DNA of 64,000 nucleotides from positions 1-64,000 of IMG/VR virus record IMGVR_UViG_3300042397_000475. One strand, written 5' to 3'. This document shows positions 3,756 through 36,307 of this stretch, one piece after another; positions within the stretch are counted from its first letter, which is position 1; each line of letters begins with the position of its first letter. A program made the translations under genes and the position numbers. The DNA is from a virus. A model generated the notes under the pieces. It was not told the DNA's origin, ran no database searches, and saw only the letters and a list, made by a program, of their open reading frames with translations.

Positions 3756-6700
3756 TTATTTTGCTAATAATTGTTTAATTAATTCTTTAAGCTCAGCTAT
3801 TTCTGTGTTTTGGGATTCAACCTGAACTTGCTGCTCTTTAATAGCTTGAATAAATAAACCTGCCATATTTCCATAAGCAACTGAGTACATATCTTCTTCT
3901 GTGCCCGACACAACTTCTGGATGAACCGCTAAAACCTCTTGTGCAATAACTCCAGCGCTTCTTTTTGTTTTATCTTTAACATCATTACGAGTAAAAGTAA
4001 CTCCCCGTAACGATTTTACTTTATCTAAGGCATCAGGGATGACTTCAACGTTTTCTTTTACTCTTGAATCTGAATAAGCTACAATATCTGTTTTAGCCCA
4101 AATAGAAGTTGAGGAGCCATCTCCACCAATAATAGCGTCTATAGAACCGTTACTACATACGTATAATCCCCAACCCTGTACCTTTCCAGAACCCCAGAAG
4201 TTAGGATGCGAATAACCAATACCGTACATTCCGCCAAGAGACGTATCAGATGGCATATAATTACTACCGATTGTATAAATAGGATTTGTATTAGCGGAGT
4301 TTCCGCCAATATTATTATACGACCCTACTAAATATCCTGTTGAATGAGATGGTCTTCCGATATAGTTAGGCGTAATTGTTCCAGTGTGCCTTGAATCTCC
4401 TCCTGATGTAAAATGGTGACCTGCTCCGTTTGAAGGTGCATTACCAATAAAGGTCATTGAACCGTAAATCCAGTTAGTCCCCCCAGCTGTTGTAATCCCA
4501 TTTGGGAAGAAAGCAGAGTTTGCTGTACCCCACGGGTTACCATTACTAACATATCCTGATGGAGCGTTAACGCTCACAGCGGTGACGTCGCTAAATCTAA
4601 TTTGTGGATTAATTGCTTCTGCAACTGTATTGAAAGATGTTACAAATGTTATGTCCCAGTTATTTGATACCGCACTAACATCACTTCTTACATACCCCCC
4701 TACAAAATCTATTACAGATACTTGAGGATAAGACCAAGAAGTTGTTGTTTCGCCAATCCATACGCAGTCATAACTACCATCATTACCAAACCTTACTGTT
4801 TTAGGGTCTGCACTAACTCCTCCCATAAAATAAGCACCCCTATGATAAGAACCTGCAGAGTAAGAGTAGTTGCCAATTGTATATTCTGAAGTAGCATCAT
4901 TTGTATAATTATAAATCCTAACCTTCATAGACCACATACAATCATTCGCTCTAAAAGGTAATCTGATTTTTATTGCAGCAGTAATTCCACCAGCATTATA
5001 TCCATTTGCAGCACCTTGGGGGGCAAATGTTCTTGATATAGTAGCCTGAGAAGCTGATGAACGAGAGTTGGTTCCAAATGAACCTCCAACTTCTAAGCTA
5101 TTTTTTAATTTACCATAGCCGCTGCTACCCCACACTTCAAATAATGAATCCCATCCATCAGAATGGACCCTAAATGATTCATTTGCCCCTACGTGCATTG
5201 CTAAACTAACTCTTCCAGACCAGCTTCTTCCTGCATCACTTTTTCCTATTCTTAAATTGCCGCTACCTCCTCCAATATGTATGGCTCCCCAGTTTTCAGA
5301 ACCTCCGTTATTTACTAAAATGTTAGGTGTTCCGTTTCCACGATGAGGCATTTGAATGTATAACAAATTGGATGCGCCATCAGGGTCTAAATAGTATCCG
5401 CCATTATTAGAATCATAAAATGCTGAAGCATACCAATTGCCTGAATCATCACACCAGGCTCCCCAAGAGGAAGATTGATTTAAAAATCCAATTCTATTAG
5501 AATTGCAGTGGATTTCCCTCATTCCTTCATCAGAGTCAGTCATATATATGGAGCTAGAACTGCCTCCATAGTTAACAACCAGGTTGCCGTGCAAATTAGT
5601 TTCCCTATTAGAGTTGACTCTTAATCCCCAGTTCCCATCATTTGTTAAAATGCCAATTTGATTAGAATCGTTAACGTAAAAATAGCCTCTAGTTGTACCC
5701 CCACTAGTCATCATCTGCATTGCTGCGGTAGAGCCTCCTGAACGCATACCCATATCACTACTTCCTTGAGGATATATATGCCAACCTGTATTTGACCAGT
5801 ATATACCGTTATTACTAGTATGGTTTCTAAACCATCCACCTGTGGTATAAACATCATTTCCGTATACTGAGCCACTACTTGTTACAGTTGTAAATGTCAC
5901 ATCTTGCCCGTGAAACGCAAATTGTTTCCAAGATGCCCAGGCATCATCGTGATTATTAGTTTGCCTATAATATAGACGCGCATTAGTAGTATTATAGTTT
6001 GTGCCAATTTGAGACATACTATATCTATTGTACCCACTAAAGGTTATTACGTGAGACCAAGAGCCATCAGCAGAACCGCCACTTCCCATAAAGTCAACAC
6101 GCATACCACCTCCGCCCATTTGAGAAGCAAGAGTACTTGGTGCATTGTTTTCTATATAGCTACCATATTCATAGTAAGGCTTTAAATATTGTCCTGTAGC
6201 ATCTTTTCTTACTAAACTTCCAATTCCGACACTTCCAACCGCACCTGCATTAGATGCGTAAGAAACTGACTGAGAACCAATATTACCTGCGTGAATAACT
6301 ATATTTCCGCCAACAACCATAGATGTTGCAGCGTATATTGTACTAGCAGACCAGATATATCCAGTATAATTAGATATCATCCACTGAGCATATGCTGTTG
6401 TTGCGCCTACAAAGTTTGATGTAAGAACTCCGTTTCCACTTGAGTTTGCCGCTGACATACCTACTAGTTCAGCTCCTACAGAGGTGTATCCACCAAATGT
6501 ATGCTGACCAGTTGGAGCATTTTTCCAATATAATCCCCAGTTAGCAGCATTCTCTTGGAATATCCAAGCGTCTACTTCTGATACTGCGTGTTTAAGTAAA
6601 ACAGAGCCTCCTGGTGCAGTAAAAGTTATGCCTCCAGATAATGTTCCTCCAGTTAATGGGAGAGCATAAGATGAATAATTGCCTGCGTGAAGAACCGCAT

Positions 6701-21342: not shown

Positions 21343-21663
21343 ACTGCTGTGCTATACTGTTCTACTCTCACGGCTACCACTTCGAGAGAATAAATGCAAC
21401 AACGTTGCAAGAAGGAACTAATGTATGCAATGTAATGTACCAAAATGATGCAATAGGATTAACTGAGGGCGTATTTGTCCAAGGCGAACTATCCGCCACA
21501 CACCACACCCCTAAAAAAACCCCCCATTTTACTAGCATTCGATTTAAGGGGTCATATCTTCGATTTAAGACACTTTACCCCCTCAAATGTCCATTCTATC
21601 CACCCTAAGCGAGATAATGCCTTAGACGCAAAATCGGGGTAATTTTGATGTTAAAAATTCTGC

Positions 21664-21794
21664 TATACGCGTGTACGTGTGTGATGTGCGCCTACGCGTG
21701 TGTACTCGCGTGTACGTGCGTGTATGTGCATACCTGCGCGACGTGTGTACGCTTGCGCGTGTCGTGATGTGCGCGCGATACGCGTGTGTGCGGT
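21664..21794. other. Alternating purine-pyrimidine tract (Z-DNA-prone)
   Basis: About 130 bp made almost entirely of alternating GT, GC, AC and CG steps, for example TACGCGTGTACGTGTGTG and GTGCGCGCGATACGCGTG. It is far richer in CG steps than the surrounding AT-rich genome. Such tracts adopt left-handed DNA under negative supercoiling. Confidence 0.7.
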
Positions 21795-21933
21795 TTCAGT
21801 ATCTTTTAAAGGGGATTCTCTGAGAAAAGTACAAAAAGGGTATATTTTCGTTGTATTATTCTAAGAAAATGGGGATTTCGTCGACACATTTCGGGATTTC
21901 GTCTCATATCTAGGTTATTTTAAGGGGGTGCTA

Positions 21934-21963
21934 TTGTAAATCAAAAAGTTTAGGCAATCTTTG
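21934..21963 (+). promoter_or_regulatory. Rightward promoter before the structured RNA and early genes
   Basis: TTG (21934-21936), 19 bases, then AATCTTTG (21956-21963), differing from TAnnTTTG only at the first base. It points at the structured segment and the early operon. No other promoter-like element is evident before 22488. Confidence 0.5.
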
Positions 21964-21964
21964 T

Positions 21965-22440
21965 AATGTCATCACGGGGAAACGTCCTCAGAGGCAAAAT
22001 ATCCACTTTTTGTGGGGGTAAAGAGAACACCCTAAATTCTCCCTGTCCCGAAAGAGGGGCATTGCAGGCAAGTATACTGAACGCACGGATTGGCTCAGTA
22101 AGTAGAACGCCCCACATAGCACCATTACGCTAGGCACTTGGATGAGCAGTTTATCGCTCCAGTGTATAAACCTCCCGACCTGATACATACGATGGTCGAC
22201 TGCGGTAGTCAGCTAGGTTAAACCCGATGCCCCCGCGATATGTGAGCCTCTACTTGCATCCCTAATTGACGGAAGGTTAAAAGTTCTGCGCGGTAGAGGG
22301 AAGATTTTATGCAAGGTTCTGTGGACTGAACCTGCCCGTCAGCAAAGGCGGTTACAAAAGCGCCACTCATTCAAGGCTTATGAATACGGCTAGTCAGGGT
22401 GCAAATGTCAATGGTGGGCGGTTCGATTCCGCCACTAGTC
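21965..22440 (+). ncRNA. Candidate large structured non-coding RNA/leader
   Basis: About 475 bases without an ORF, GC-richer than the genome and dense in helices. Local hairpins: CCAC/GTGG near 22002, GAGAA/TTCTC near 22024-22044, TACTGA/TCAGTA near 22074-22100, GAGC/GCTC near 22142-22157, AGGTTC/GAACCT near 22312-22331. Long-range pairs: GGGGC near 22056 with GCCCC near 22110, and TGACGG near 22268 with CCGTCA near 22336. It ends exactly in the tRNA-like element at 22388-22440. Size, ornate folding and a terminal tRNA-like element recall the phage-borne ROOL and GOLLD RNA classes, but I cannot match a consensus. Confidence 0.5.
22388..22440 (+). ncRNA. Truncated tRNA-like element
   Basis: A 7-bp acceptor-like stem (GGCTAGT 22388-22394 with ACTAGTC 22434-22440, one G-U pair) stacks directly on a perfect T arm (GGCGG, loop TTCGATT, CCGCC; 22417-22433). 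Only 22 bases replace the D and anticodon arms. It may be an RNase P/RNase Z recognition structure that defines the 5' end of the first early mRNA, which begins 48 bases later. Confidence 0.6.
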
Positions 22441-22459
22441 GCTAACTTTCAACTATCCT

Positions 22460-22478
22460 TTCGGTGTAGGTAACCGAA
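22460..22478 (+). promoter_or_regulatory. Conserved leader hairpin 1
   Basis: TTCGGT/ACCGAA stem with loop GTAGGTA, ending 9 bases before the ATG at 22488. First of seven copies; its outer pairs are T-A where other copies have G-C, a compensatory change. Confidence 0.75.
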
Positions 22479-22487
22479 TCAAATCTT

Positions 22488-22766
22488 ATGAAATTCAATG
22501 TATTAGCAGAAGCAATGTTACAAATCAAGGAGTTAGGCTTAGAGGGTACAAACTTTGGAATTAAGCAAAGTGTGTACGACGATGGCAAAGGCAAGTATGA
22601 GGTTGTGACCGTCGAGGTAAAGTTTGATGTCGACCTAATGAAGAAGTTGACCGCTATTAGCAATCACGTTAGCTTCAAACCATCGGTAGATGGCAAAGAG
22701 CGCTACCTAGGATTCAATACGGTGAGAGGTAGCGAAGGCGATAGACTGGACTTTAAACTAGTGTAA
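22488..22766 (+). CDS. Hypothetical early protein A
   Basis: This 92-residue soluble protein (MKFNVLAEAMLQIKELGLEG) mixes short helices and strands with no known motif. It is the first gene of the early operon, directly after the tRNA-like element and leader hairpin. Its last codons and TAA (22761-22766, GTGTAA) form the 5' strand of stem I of hammerhead ribozyme 1, so coding and ribozyme sequences overlap. The ATG is fixed by the leader hairpin spacing. Confidence 0.75.
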   Translation: MKFNVLAEAMLQIKELGLEGTNFGIKQSVYDDGKGKYEVVTVEVKFDVDLMKKLTAISNHVSFKPSVDGKERYLGFNTVRGSEGDRLDFKLV

Positions 22767-22810
22767 CTGATGAGGCTTGAATAGCCGAAACCCCTACGGG
22801 GGTCTTACAC
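22761..22810 (+). ncRNA. Type I hammerhead ribozyme 1
   Basis: All core elements are present. Stem I is GTGTAA (22761-22766) with TTACAC (22805-22810). The conserved CTGATGA is 22767-22773. Stem II is GGCT/AGCC with loop TGAAT (22774-22786). The conserved GAAA is 22787-22790, its last A pairing with T22803. Stem III is CCCC/GGGG closed by a TACG tetraloop (22791-22802). Predicted self-cleavage follows C22804 in the GTC triplet. Cleavage would separate the mRNA of gene A from that of gene B, leaving gene B with a 5'-OH end and a 43-base leader containing hairpin 2. Confidence 0.92.
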
Positions 22811-22819
22811 ACTTATCCT

Positions 22820-22838
22820 TGCGGTGTAGGTAACCGCG
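22820..22838 (+). promoter_or_regulatory. Conserved leader hairpin 2
   Basis: GCGGT/ACCGC stem plus an outer U-G pair, loop GTAGGTA, 9 bases before the ATG at 22848. It lies 15 bases downstream of the ribozyme cleavage site. Confidence 0.75.
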
Positions 22839-22847
22839 TCAAATCAA

Positions 22848-23096
22848 ATGAATAATTTATCAGGCAAATTGTTAGCAATCAACGAAATCTCTAATGAAAT
22901 CTTCGGGGGCGAAATGGCAGACACTTACGTTATCAGCGTATGGGACAAAGAAATTACCTTCTCGTGCCATTACAAAAAAGAAATCGCGGCTAAGGCTATC
23001 GCAATGGATGGCGCTAAGTGCGAAGTTAATAGCAGTGGCTTTTCCACTATCACATTTAGACATTTTGACTTAGATATCAAAATCACGCTTTCCTAG
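22848..23096 (+). CDS. Hypothetical early protein B
   Basis: 82 residues (MNNLSGKLLAINEISNEIFG), probably a small beta-rich domain with C-H-Y-K-K and C-E-V-N cysteines about 23 residues apart. No family recognised. It is bracketed by hammerhead ribozymes on both sides; its TAG stop (23094-23096) touches the first base of ribozyme 2. Confidence 0.75.
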   Translation: MNNLSGKLLAINEISNEIFGGEMADTYVISVWDKEITFSCHYKKEIAAKAIAMDGAKCEVNSSGFSTITFRHFDLDIKITLS

Positions 23097-23144
23097 TGTA
23101 ACTGATGAGTCCTAATGGACGAAACGCCTACGGGCGTCTTACAC
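23096..23144 (+). ncRNA. Type I hammerhead ribozyme 2
   Basis: Stem I is GTGTAA (23096-23101) with TTACAC (23139-23144). CTGATGA is 23102-23108. Stem II is GTCC/GGAC with loop TAAT (23109-23120). GAAA is 23121-23124. Stem III is CGCC/GGCG with the same TACG tetraloop (23125-23136). U23137 pairs with the last A of GAAA, and cleavage is predicted after C23138. Stems II and III differ from ribozyme 1 by paired changes while the core and stem I are identical, which is strong evidence for selection on structure. Confidence 0.93.
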
Positions 23145-23153
23145 ACTTAACCT

Positions 23154-23172
23154 TTCGGTGTAGGTAACCGAA
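23154..23172 (+). promoter_or_regulatory. Conserved leader hairpin 3
   Basis: TTCGGT/ACCGAA stem with loop GTAGGTA, 9 bases before the ATG at 23182 and 15 bases after the cleavage site of ribozyme 2, the same geometry as at gene B. Confidence 0.75.
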
Positions 23173-23181
23173 TCAAATGCT

Positions 23182-23475
23182 ATGAATAACTTAATCGAAA
23201 AGTCTTACGAAATTGACAACTCTTGGACAATAACAAGAGCGGATGGCACAAGTTTGCCAATGCATAAAATTGTGAGCGTAAGGATTGCAGATGGTGATAC
23301 GGTCATCTATTATTCAATACAAAGAACAAATGGCGTAGGCGAAAGTTACATCCTTATGCAAAGAAAAAATGCCAAACTCCACTACAATGAAAAAACATAT
23401 TGGAAAAATTACGATGACAACGCAAAGTTTGAGCGCGCCATCAAAAGAATTGAGCGTATGGTTTCTAGTCTTTAA
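23182..23475 (+). CDS. Hypothetical early protein C
   Basis: 97 residues (MNNLIEKSYEIDNSWTITRA), with alternating strands, an R-T-N-G-V-G-E-S-Y turn and a basic C-terminal helix (F-E-R-A-I-K-R-I-E-R-M). The first four residues match protein B, suggesting shared leader or N-terminal origin. No family recognised. Confidence 0.75.
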   Translation: MNNLIEKSYEIDNSWTITRADGTSLPMHKIVSVRIADGDTVIYYSIQRTNGVGESYILMQRKNAKLHYNEKTYWKNYDDNAKFERAIKRIERMVSSL

Positions 23476-23491
23476 TCTTTCAACCAAACCT

Positions 23492-23510
23492 TGCGGTGTA
23501 GGTAACCGCG
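23492..23510 (+). promoter_or_regulatory. Conserved leader hairpin 4
   Basis: GCGGT/ACCGC stem plus an outer U-G pair, loop GTAGGTA, 9 bases before the ATG at 23520. No ribozyme precedes this copy. Confidence 0.73.
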
Positions 23511-23519
23511 ACACATCTT

Positions 23520-23779: not shown

Positions 23780-24700
23780 ATGGCAACTCAAGCAGAATTA
23801 ATCGACCAAATCAATGACACAATTATCGCGGGCTTACAAGCTAAGGGCTTACAATGGTTCAAACCATTTAAGGATAGCTCCACCCTACAATGGAACGCTA
23901 TAAACTCATCAGGCAAGGCTTACCGAGGTGTTAATCAGTTTATCCTATCAGCTAAGGCTATCGACAAAGGATGGGTTAATAAATGGTATACCTTTGCTCA
24001 AGTAAGCAAGCTAGATGGACGTGTTAACAAGGGCGAAAAGTCTACGGATGTATACCTTTGGAAGGTCAACTTTGCAGTAGAAATCGCGGGCAAAGTTCAA
24101 TATTTCCCACGCATTGAGGATATCCCATCGCACCTACAAAAGCAAGCTAAGAAAGCGTTCTACCTACAGACATTTAAGGTGTTTTCTATATCACAAACCA
24201 ATTTGCCTATAGACACCCCCGCTGAGCCTATCGAGGTTACAGAATTGGAAGCGGACGCACACGCTGAGTCTATCCTTCAGGCTTGGACTAGCGAGGTTGT
24301 AACTATTAAGCATTCAGGCTTAGGTCGCGCTTACTATTCTCCTAGCGGGGACTACATCCATATGCCATCTAAGACTACAGACCAATGGAAATCGAACGGG
24401 GACTACTACAAAGTATTCTTTCACGAAGCTATCCATAGCACAGGTCATTCGTCACGCCTTAATCGCTTAGATAAGACGGCAAACTTTGGCTCTGACGAGT
24501 ATAGTAAGGAGGAATTAGTAGCTGAACTAGGCGCGCTATATTTAGAGGCTATCACGGGCATTAAAACAATCGTCGACGATGTCAAAAACTCGCAGGCTTA
24601 TATCAACGGATGGATTAGTAAATTAAAATCTGACCCTAAGTTGATTATGAGCGCCTCTACCAAGGCTCACGAAGCAGTAGAATTAATCCTATCCAAGTAA
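23780..24700 (+). CDS. ArdC-like anti-restriction protein
   Basis: The 306-residue protein has the two-domain ArdC plan. The N-terminal single-strand DNA-binding domain (about 1-130) has G-L-Q-W-F-K-P-F and A-Y-R-G-V-N-Q-F, then W-Y-T-F-A-Q-V and the K-G-E-K-S motif. The C-terminal zincin-like metallopeptidase domain has H-E-A-I-H-S-T-G-H (about 215-223) as zinc and catalytic residues, followed by Y-S-K-E-E-L-V-A-E-L-G with a further acidic ligand. ArdC proteins protect incoming DNA against host restriction, which suits an early position. It lacks the leader hairpin; instead its leader carries a run of CA repeats. Confidence 0.85.
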   Translation: MATQAELIDQINDTIIAGLQAKGLQWFKPFKDSSTLQWNAINSSGKAYRGVNQFILSAKAIDKGWVNKWYTFAQVSKLDGRVNKGEKSTDVYLWKVNFAVEIAGKVQYFPRIEDIPSHLQKQAKKAFYLQTFKVFSISQTNLPIDTPAEPIEVTELEADAHAESILQAWTSEVVTIKHSGLGRAYYSPSGDYIHMPSKTTDQWKSNGDYYKVFFHEAIHSTGHSSRLNRLDKTANFGSDEYSKEELVAELGALYLEAITGIKTIVDDVKNSQAYINGWISKLKSDPKLIMSASTKAHEAVELILSK

Positions 24701-24719: not shown

Positions 24720-24738
24720 GCGGTGTATAGGTAACCGC
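24720..24738 (+). promoter_or_regulatory. Conserved leader hairpin 5
   Basis: GCGGT/ACCGC stem with a 9-base loop GTATAGGTA, 8 bases before the ATG at 24747. The loop is two bases longer than in copies 1-4. Confidence 0.7.
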
Positions 24739-25000: not shown

Positions 25001-25019
25001 GCGGTGTATAGGTGACCGC
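25001..25019 (+). promoter_or_regulatory. Conserved leader hairpin 6
   Basis: GCGGT/ACCGC stem with a 9-base loop GTATAGGTG, 9 bases before the ATG at 25029. It fixes the start, which is internal to a longer open frame from 24999. Confidence 0.7.
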
Positions 25020-25214: not shown

Positions 25215-25232
25215 GCGGTGTAGGTCAACCGC
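25215..25232 (+). promoter_or_regulatory. Conserved leader hairpin 7
   Basis: GCGGT/ACCGC stem with an 8-base loop GTAGGTCA, 10 bases before the ATG at 25243. Most divergent loop of the seven, stem unchanged. Confidence 0.68.
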
Positions 25233-35716: not shown

Positions 35717-35830
35717 AGTCAGGTGGCGGAATGGGTTGTATTAGGGGTTTCCCAGCCGATGGTATACGCTATAAATGTAATAAGTCTATAAAGCATTTAT
35801 ATTTTACAGGTTCGAATCCTGTCCTGACTA
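35717..35830 (+). tRNA. tRNA-like element 1, D-loop insertion, anticodon not assignable
   Basis: Acceptor AGTCAGG (35717-35723) pairs perfectly with CCTGACT (35823-35829), followed by an A discriminator. The T arm ACAGG-TTCGAAT-CCTGT is perfect. The D arm reads like tRNA-Leu (TGGCGGAATGG..TATACGC) if a 28-base insertion after the GG pair is removed; the insert ends with a copy of ATGG. In place of a normal anticodon arm there is an 8-bp stem TATAAATG/CATTTATA with a 16-base loop. Length 113 plus discriminator. Probably not a decoding tRNA. Confidence 0.5.
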
Positions 35831-35955: not shown

Positions 35956-36042
35956 AGTCAGGTGGCAGAAATTATGGTAATGTTATAAATGTAATAAGTC
36001 TATAAAGCATTTAATGTACAGGTTCGAATCCTGTCCTGACTA
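35956..36042 (+). tRNA. tRNA-like element 2, anticodon not assignable
   Basis: 87 bases. The acceptor and T arm sequences are identical to element 1 (AGTCAGG/CCTGACT; ACAGG-TTCGAAT-CCTGT). The D arm is Leu-like with no insertion (TGGCAGAAATTATGGTAATGT). The central arm has a TAAATG/CATTTA stem with the same 16-base loop as element 1. Length suits a class II (Leu/Ser) tRNA, but I cannot build a 7-base anticodon loop with U33. Confidence 0.5.
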
Positions 36043-36214
36043 CTAGGAGCCCTTTAGGCTACATTAACAGACCGACATTTTGGACTGAGATGATTAATGA
36101 TAGAAGCATATTAATGGGGCTAAATTTAATTATATTGATATGTTTTGAGAGCAATGCCTATTAACACGTAGTTGCATCATTAATAAAAATTGACTGCTGG
36201 AAAGACAGCAATTT

Positions 36215-36307
36215 AGTCAGGTAGCTTAAAGGTCATAAGGAAATTGACCCTTGAGGATTAGAGCACTCGAAAGAGATGAGGTGTGGGTTCGATTCCCACT
36301 CTGACTA
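36215..36307 (+). tRNA. tRNA-like element 3, D-loop insertion, anticodon not assignable
   Basis: The acceptor AGTCAGG (36215-36221) pairs with TCTGACT (36300-36306) with one G-U, and an A discriminator follows. T arm GTGGG-TTCGATT-CCCAC is perfect. The D arm reads TAGCTTAAAGG..ATTAGAGCA once a 24-base insert after GG is removed; the insert forms a GGTCA/TGACC hairpin with the preceding GG and ends with GAGG. The remaining 17 bases give only a CTC/GAG stem with a 9-base loop, too short for an anticodon arm plus variable region. Confidence 0.5.

Follow-up and report, generated by a model that had tools for sequence, protein, structure and literature searches.

Multiple hammerhead ribozymes that flank single genes in prophages were described by Perreault et al. 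in 2011. In that report, a function in mRNA dicing is proposed, and the tandem phage hammerheads cleave both in vitro and in E. coli (PMC3088659). The tandem arrangement was therefore already known, and the preliminary description of the present DNA was mistaken in calling it new. In mitochondrial tRNA punctuation, and with the t-elements of plants, structures made of an acceptor stem and a T-arm lie between genes, and RNase P and RNase Z free single-gene mRNAs. The plant mitochondrial t-elements are treated in PMC11658184.

Phage genome and early operon

The window is the whole stretch of DNA that was analysed, 64,000 of the 66,253 bases of a virus record. Its large terminase shares 31% sequence identity with the Flavobacterium elemoviruses and 25-26% with the Cellulophaga podophages, and both the terminase and the portal match PHROGs families. 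Judged from these matches, the phage host is most likely a member of the Bacteroidota, and probably Flavobacteria-like. The structural genes run leftward from about 21.1 kb. The early operon runs rightward, in the order noncoding leader, gene A, gene B, gene C, gene D, and an ArdC-type anti-restriction gene. The features are listed below.

21965-22387, plus strand: noncoding leader of the rightward operon, with few, spurious-looking ORFs; same position in relatives
22388-22441, plus strand: minimal tRNA-like element between the noncoding leader and gene A, from structural scans and pair counts over 24 distinct elements
22460-22478, plus strand: leader hairpin 1, before gene A, from fold and sequence comparison
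22488-22766, plus strand: gene A, 92 aa, from the ORF list; its stop codon TAA lies within stem I of hammerhead copy 1
22761-22810, plus strand: type I hammerhead copy 1, from its fold and covariance model R1 (68.6 bits, E 6e-16)
22820-22838, plus strand: leader hairpin 2, before gene B and 3' of hammerhead copy 1
22848-23096, plus strand: gene B, 82 aa, from the ORF list, with one hammerhead on each side
23096-23144, plus strand: type I hammerhead copy 2, from Rfam RF00163 (34.4 bits), its fold and model R1 (62.3 bits, E 3e-14)
23154-23172, plus strand: leader hairpin 3, before gene C and 3' of hammerhead copy 2
23182-23475, plus strand: gene C, 97 aa, from the ORF list, the first gene 3' of hammerhead copy 2
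23491-23511, plus strand: leader hairpin 4, before gene D, at a junction without a hammerhead
23780-24700, plus strand: ArdC-like anti-restriction gene (Pfam ArdcN and MPTase-PolyVal; PHROG 7245, anti-restriction protein)
24720-24738, 25001-25019 and 25215-25232: further leader hairpins, no hammerhead upstream

Genes A and B have no match in Pfam or PHROGs; gene A shares 74% identity with a gene of a relative. The operon leader is probably transcribed, over about 420 nt from a predicted start, and ends at the tRNA-like element. Apparently structured noncoding leaders of a few hundred nt, each with a terminal tRNA-like element, precede the first early gene in several other phages (L180, L181, L183, L184, L187, L033, L069, L112, and L223), and their sequence varies from one relative to another. 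Rfam reported no family for those leaders that were searched, and neither Rfam nor ARAGORN recognised the long leader. The noncoding leader may be released as a small RNA. Upstream of the operon, at 21632-21822, the window contains an alternating purine-pyrimidine region rich in GT/GC/AC, which is common to L177 and partly to L187.

Two type I hammerheads

Each side of gene B carries a complete type I hammerhead. With the loops in brackets and the predicted cut at the slash, copy 1 is GTGTAA-CTGATGA-GGCT(TGAAT)AGCC-GAA-ACCCC(TACG)GGGGT-C/TTACAC, and copy 2 is GTGTAA-CTGATGA-GTCC(TAAT)GGAC-GAA-ACGCC(TACG)GGCGT-C/TTACAC. Both copies have a 6-bp stem I, a 4-bp stem II, and a 5-bp stem III with a UACG loop. 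The core (CUGANGA...GAAA) and the GUC cleavage triplet are exact in both. Stem I is open-ended, and stems II and III are closed in the folds, which is the type I topology. The predicted folds are exactly the hammerhead structure, with z values of -2.8 for copy 1 and -3.3 for copy 2. Copy 1 and copy 2 differ on both sides of two base pairs in stem II and of one in stem III, around a fixed core; paired stem changes are also seen in the relatives.

Covariance models, which had been proposed as a check, bear out both copies. With Rfam RF00163 (cut-off 34), copy 2 passed and copy 1 fell below. Model R1, which was built from 59 phage hammerheads, all outside the present phage family, detected both copies. 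It also detected one hammerhead each in the relatives L001, L011, L180, and L183; in the L001 hammerhead, stem II is that of copy 2 and stem III is that of copy 1. When 2.16 Mb of sequence was shuffled and put through the structural scan, neither of two rounds yielded a hammerhead. Two matches to the bare core pattern were found in 2 of 100 shuffles of the window, so the core pattern is insufficient and the stems carry the case.

The cuts are predicted between C22804 and U22805 in copy 1, and between C23138 and U23139 in copy 2, with new 5' ends at 22805 and 23139. The stop codon of gene B is TAG, and copy 2 begins at the G of this codon. The predicted released gene B RNA extends from 22805 to 23138 (334 nt). 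The distance from cut to start codon is 43 nt, due to the leader hairpin in between. In all these respects (two type I hammerheads in the A/B and B/C gaps, the gene A stop codon in stem I, paired changes in stems II and III, and both cut sites) the preliminary description was borne out, and the hammerheads are confirmed as real and correctly read. Most junctions of the operon from gene C onward have no cutter; dicing is therefore not needed for every gene.

Leader hairpin

The leader hairpin has the consensus CCUU-GCGGU-GUAUAGGUMA-ACCGC, with CCUU upstream and AGG in the loop. It lies about 7-16 nt ahead of at least seven start codons of the window, mostly without a hammerhead. In the relatives (L177-L187, L185) it is found ahead of most early genes, whether a hammerhead is present or absent. 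The hairpin arms covary (GCGGT/ACCGC, UCCGU/ACGGA, CCUGU/ACAGG, and ACGAU/AUCGU). The upstream CCU and the loop AGG, which are candidates for a pseudoknot, are both nearly invariant. A hairpin common to both hammerheads had been noted before and is real; it is not specific to them, as five sites of the window carry it with no hammerhead upstream.

A role of the hairpin as part of a hammerhead device was rejected, as it precedes many genes that have no hammerhead. A DNA operator is unlikely, since the two arms vary together. Pairing between GUGUA of the hairpin loop and the UUACAC at the new 5' end is not supported; it is lost in L183, and GUGUA is also present at junctions without a hammerhead. 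The leader hairpin is a separate element of the 5' leader, perhaps with a role in translation.

Hammerheads across phages

A structural scan over viral-contig loci identified at least 184 distinct hammerheads among the matches listed. The position between genes is strongly conserved: among the matches listed, 164 of the 179 hammerheads with enough flank (92%) lie between same-strand ORFs, compared with 23% of sites drawn at random from these loci. The start codon is found at a median of 27 nt past the cut (same 179 hammerheads, among the matches listed). Stop codons are often located in the core or in stem I; in stem I, the codon starts at -3, -8 or -9 relative to the core. The first scan pattern was biased toward the -3 class; outside that pattern, this class was also found in 13 of 67 hammerheads, among the matches listed. 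A missing Shine-Dalgarno sequence was rejected as the general reason for the cut, as an SD-like motif is present at 63 of the 164 junctions (matches listed).

Of 171 phage hammerheads among the matches listed, 94% have an A immediately before stem I and 84% an A immediately after it, and loop II conforms to UNANU. The window copies keep both the A residues and the loop. From the sequence, these features are as would be expected for the loop contact needed in fast cleavage. In alignment A1, selection sets the pair counts at 100%, and these counts are informative on the range of pair types only.

Clustering is common. Dozens of contigs, at least, carry two to six hammerheads among the matches listed, which also speaks against a new arrangement in the window. 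Several same-strand copies flank single genes, and 67 adjacent pairs from about 37 loci were collected from the matches listed. Stem I is identical in 30 of these 67 pairs, compared with 8.5% between contigs (matches listed); stem-loop II is identical in 4 of 67 and stem-loop III in 4 of 67.

Phage isolates also carry such elements. In the Cellulophaga baltica phage phi18:3, a predicted hammerhead (21904-21958, minus strand) is located between gp050 and gp049 (40 bits). In Agrobacterium phage OLIVR1, a hammerhead with 86% identity to copy 2 (3959-4009) is located between gp097 and gp096. Both isolates are open to laboratory testing. Flavobacterium phage elemoF has a partly degenerate hammerhead (35 bits); this hammerhead-like element (NC_055853.1, L301, 16045-16102, minus strand) lies between gp65 and gp67, has a broken stem II, and is perhaps decaying. 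Similar hammerheads are also found in Legionella and other bacterial assemblies. One 5.8-kb contig of an assembly labelled Aliivibrio sp. (L250, JAAGZR010000219.1) contains five hammerhead pattern matches within 3 kb, and is probably phage.

tRNA-like elements

A second type of element, which the preliminary description missed, opens the same operon. The element at 22388-22441 contains a 7-bp acceptor stem, a GG-containing D-like segment, and a 5-bp T-stem with a TTCGATT loop. It is no canonical tRNA: there is no anticodon arm, and 22 nt separate the acceptor stem from the T-arm. In the relatives, the junctions without a hammerhead often hold a tRNA-like element of about 42-58 nt, with the same 7-bp acceptor and 5-bp T-stem, a TTCGATT-type loop, no anticodon arm, and no CCA. 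Seven of them are found in L279, mostly at consecutive junctions.

The D-like segment contains GG in 24 of 24 distinct elements; in tRNA, the GG of the D-loop docks on the T-loop. All 12 helix pairs covary among these 24 elements, which were selected for pairing. A test blind to pairing started from the GGTTCRANTCC cores of these loci and asked for two helices, a complete T-stem and an acceptor of 7 bp, less than 30 nt apart. Both were present in 24 of 42 cores, and in 0 of 25 controls. A 7-bp acceptor on a 5-bp T-stem with a T-loop is the shape of an RNase P/RNase Z-type substrate.

ARAGORN and Rfam did not report the short tRNA-like elements, and ARAGORN also passed over the one at 22388-22441. 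A blastn search of phage isolates for these elements gave essentially only short T-arm matches, many of them in ordinary tRNA genes. Outside the family, a tRNA-like element was found near the hammerhead at 9 of 105 loci, compared with 2 of 77 controls; this enrichment is not significant (p 0.12) and was not accepted. At all nine loci the two elements are on the same strand.

The 5' strand of the acceptor overlaps the stop codon in L033, L184, L187, and at one L279 junction. A 5' cut by RNase P would thus harm the upstream ORF, so the 3' cut is likely the useful one. RNase Z acts on the 3' ends of tRNAs without CCA. For RNase P, the acceptor/T-arm stack is sufficient for recognition (PMC4919913, PMC11143913).

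Elsewhere in the window, a 700-base noncoding gap holds three tRNA-like genes (35717-35830, 35956-36043, and 36215-36307) with a common acceptor stem, AGUCAGG. Their inner parts are long or odd, and ARAGORN cannot name them clearly. Several relatives also have clusters of GGTTCRANTCC cores elsewhere in the genome.

Possible exchange of the two elements between relatives

Different cutters are found before an orthologous gene. The gene beginning MRKLFNQ... is 90% identical in the two settings; in L001/L177 it comes after a hammerhead, in L033 a tRNA-like element takes that place, and it keeps the same leader hairpin and start in both. L001 and L033 have different upstream genes. In L180, a version of the gene with 51% identity is again located 3' of a hammerhead. 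L180 and L183 have the upstream gene and the hammerhead in common (87% identical proteins), and their downstream genes are different. The upstream gene may therefore carry its cutter with it, as opposed to an exchange of the cutter alone. At some junctions, certain relatives carry neither a hammerhead nor a tRNA-like element.

The tRNA-like elements of the relatives suggest two interchangeable ways to cut one message into single-gene messages. The exchange amounts to a natural replacement experiment, in which a second, chemically unrelated candidate cutter at the junctions of the relatives provides independent evidence for cutting between genes as the purpose. It looks new, as it is not described in the open-licence papers found; its novelty is thus not proven.

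Proposed function and alternatives

The function of the window hammerheads is probably transcript dicing. It is quite likely that ordinary type I hammerheads dice the early operon, that the tRNA-like element of the relatives does the same job, and that the two cutters are interchangeable. After a polycistronic transcript is made, each hammerhead would fold and cut itself on its 3' side. At the 3' end, the RNAs of genes A and B would carry the compact stem II/III structure and a 2',3'-cyclic phosphate. Each upstream mRNA would keep its stop codon and gain a folded 3' end. The next RNA would begin at 22805 or 23139 with a 5'-OH, ahead of the leader hairpin and 43 nt from the start codon. The operon would thus become a set of single-gene mRNAs with defined ends, which may benefit stability or translation initiation. 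The tRNA-like element would most probably be cut at its 3' end, after the discriminator base, by the host RNase Z, and perhaps also at its 5' end by RNase P. The order of stop codon, cutter, short 5' leader, and start codon would be kept, and the cutter type would vary. The wider proposal, that some phages punctuate early operons at a constant position between stop and start codon, by a self-cutting hammerhead or by a tRNA mimic that lacks the anticodon arm and would be cut by tRNA-processing enzymes of the host, is put forward with a little more belief than doubt.

The same cuts could serve other ends. The hammerheads might mainly lower or limit the expression of the flanking genes, by mRNA turnover or timing, and not yield stable mRNAs. 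Self-cutting would separate the genes from the promoter-proximal transcript and remove the protective 5' triphosphate. However, the stop codon would stay on the upstream mRNA, whose 3' end would be folded, and the new 5' end would be fixed near the next start, which looks like the production of usable mRNAs; a lowering function is considered unlikely. A circular product is judged less probable again. According to this explanation, the gene B RNA would be released and its ends ligated by the downstream hammerhead, giving a circular RNA that codes for protein, in the manner of retrozymes and viroid-like RNAs. The identical stem I sequences would allow the 5' UUACAC of the released RNA to re-pair with the GUGUAA of copy 2, and the frequent sharing of stem I between adjacent copies would fit. 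Yet in several phages with three to five tandem hammerheads (L088, L097, L103, and L150), stem I differs in most of the copies, and the sharing may be due to common descent, recombination, or a shared preference for the 5'-end sequence. Circular or spliced products were also sought by Perreault et al., who found none (PMC3088659).

If the elements were decaying passengers of recombining gene cassettes without present function, the relatives' junctions with neither element and the degenerate elemoF copy with its broken stem II would be accounted for. An intact core, paired changes in stems II and III in both the window and the relatives, and a tightly kept junction position argue against this, and it is hardly credible. 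mRNA dicing, with predicted cleavage, is the best-supported reading of the type I hammerheads, as the preliminary description had proposed.

Comparison with known systems

The window copies share with the Rfam family RF00163 (Hammerhead_1) the same core, three stems, and type I topology. They differ in that copy 1 scores below the cut-off despite its complete anatomy, and was recovered by the phage-trained model. In comparison with the clusters of Perreault et al. (PMC3088659), the same ribozyme is placed in tandem between phage genes, and the same dicing function is proposed. The anti-restriction neighbour is ardA in that case and ardC in the window. By contrast, the phage and the host group are different, the window has a stop codon inside stem I and a leader hairpin after the cut, and equivalent junctions of the relatives carry tRNA-like elements, of which the passages of PMC3088659 consulted make no mention. 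In retrozymes and viroid-like RNAs, as in the window, two hammerheads would release a unit-length RNA whose ends could re-ligate. However, the unit in the window is a protein gene of a DNA phage, and no circle was seen.

In mitochondrial punctuation and in these phages, structures with an acceptor stem and a T-arm lie between genes. The phage structures differ in having no anticodon arm, their cutting is predicted, and they would be interchangeable with a self-cutting ribozyme. These comparisons bear on the biological role of phage hammerheads, a question since the discovery report of 2011. If the proposed mechanism is true, these operons might be the phage counterpart of tRNA punctuation in mitochondria, with the hammerhead as a second option beside the tRNA mimic.
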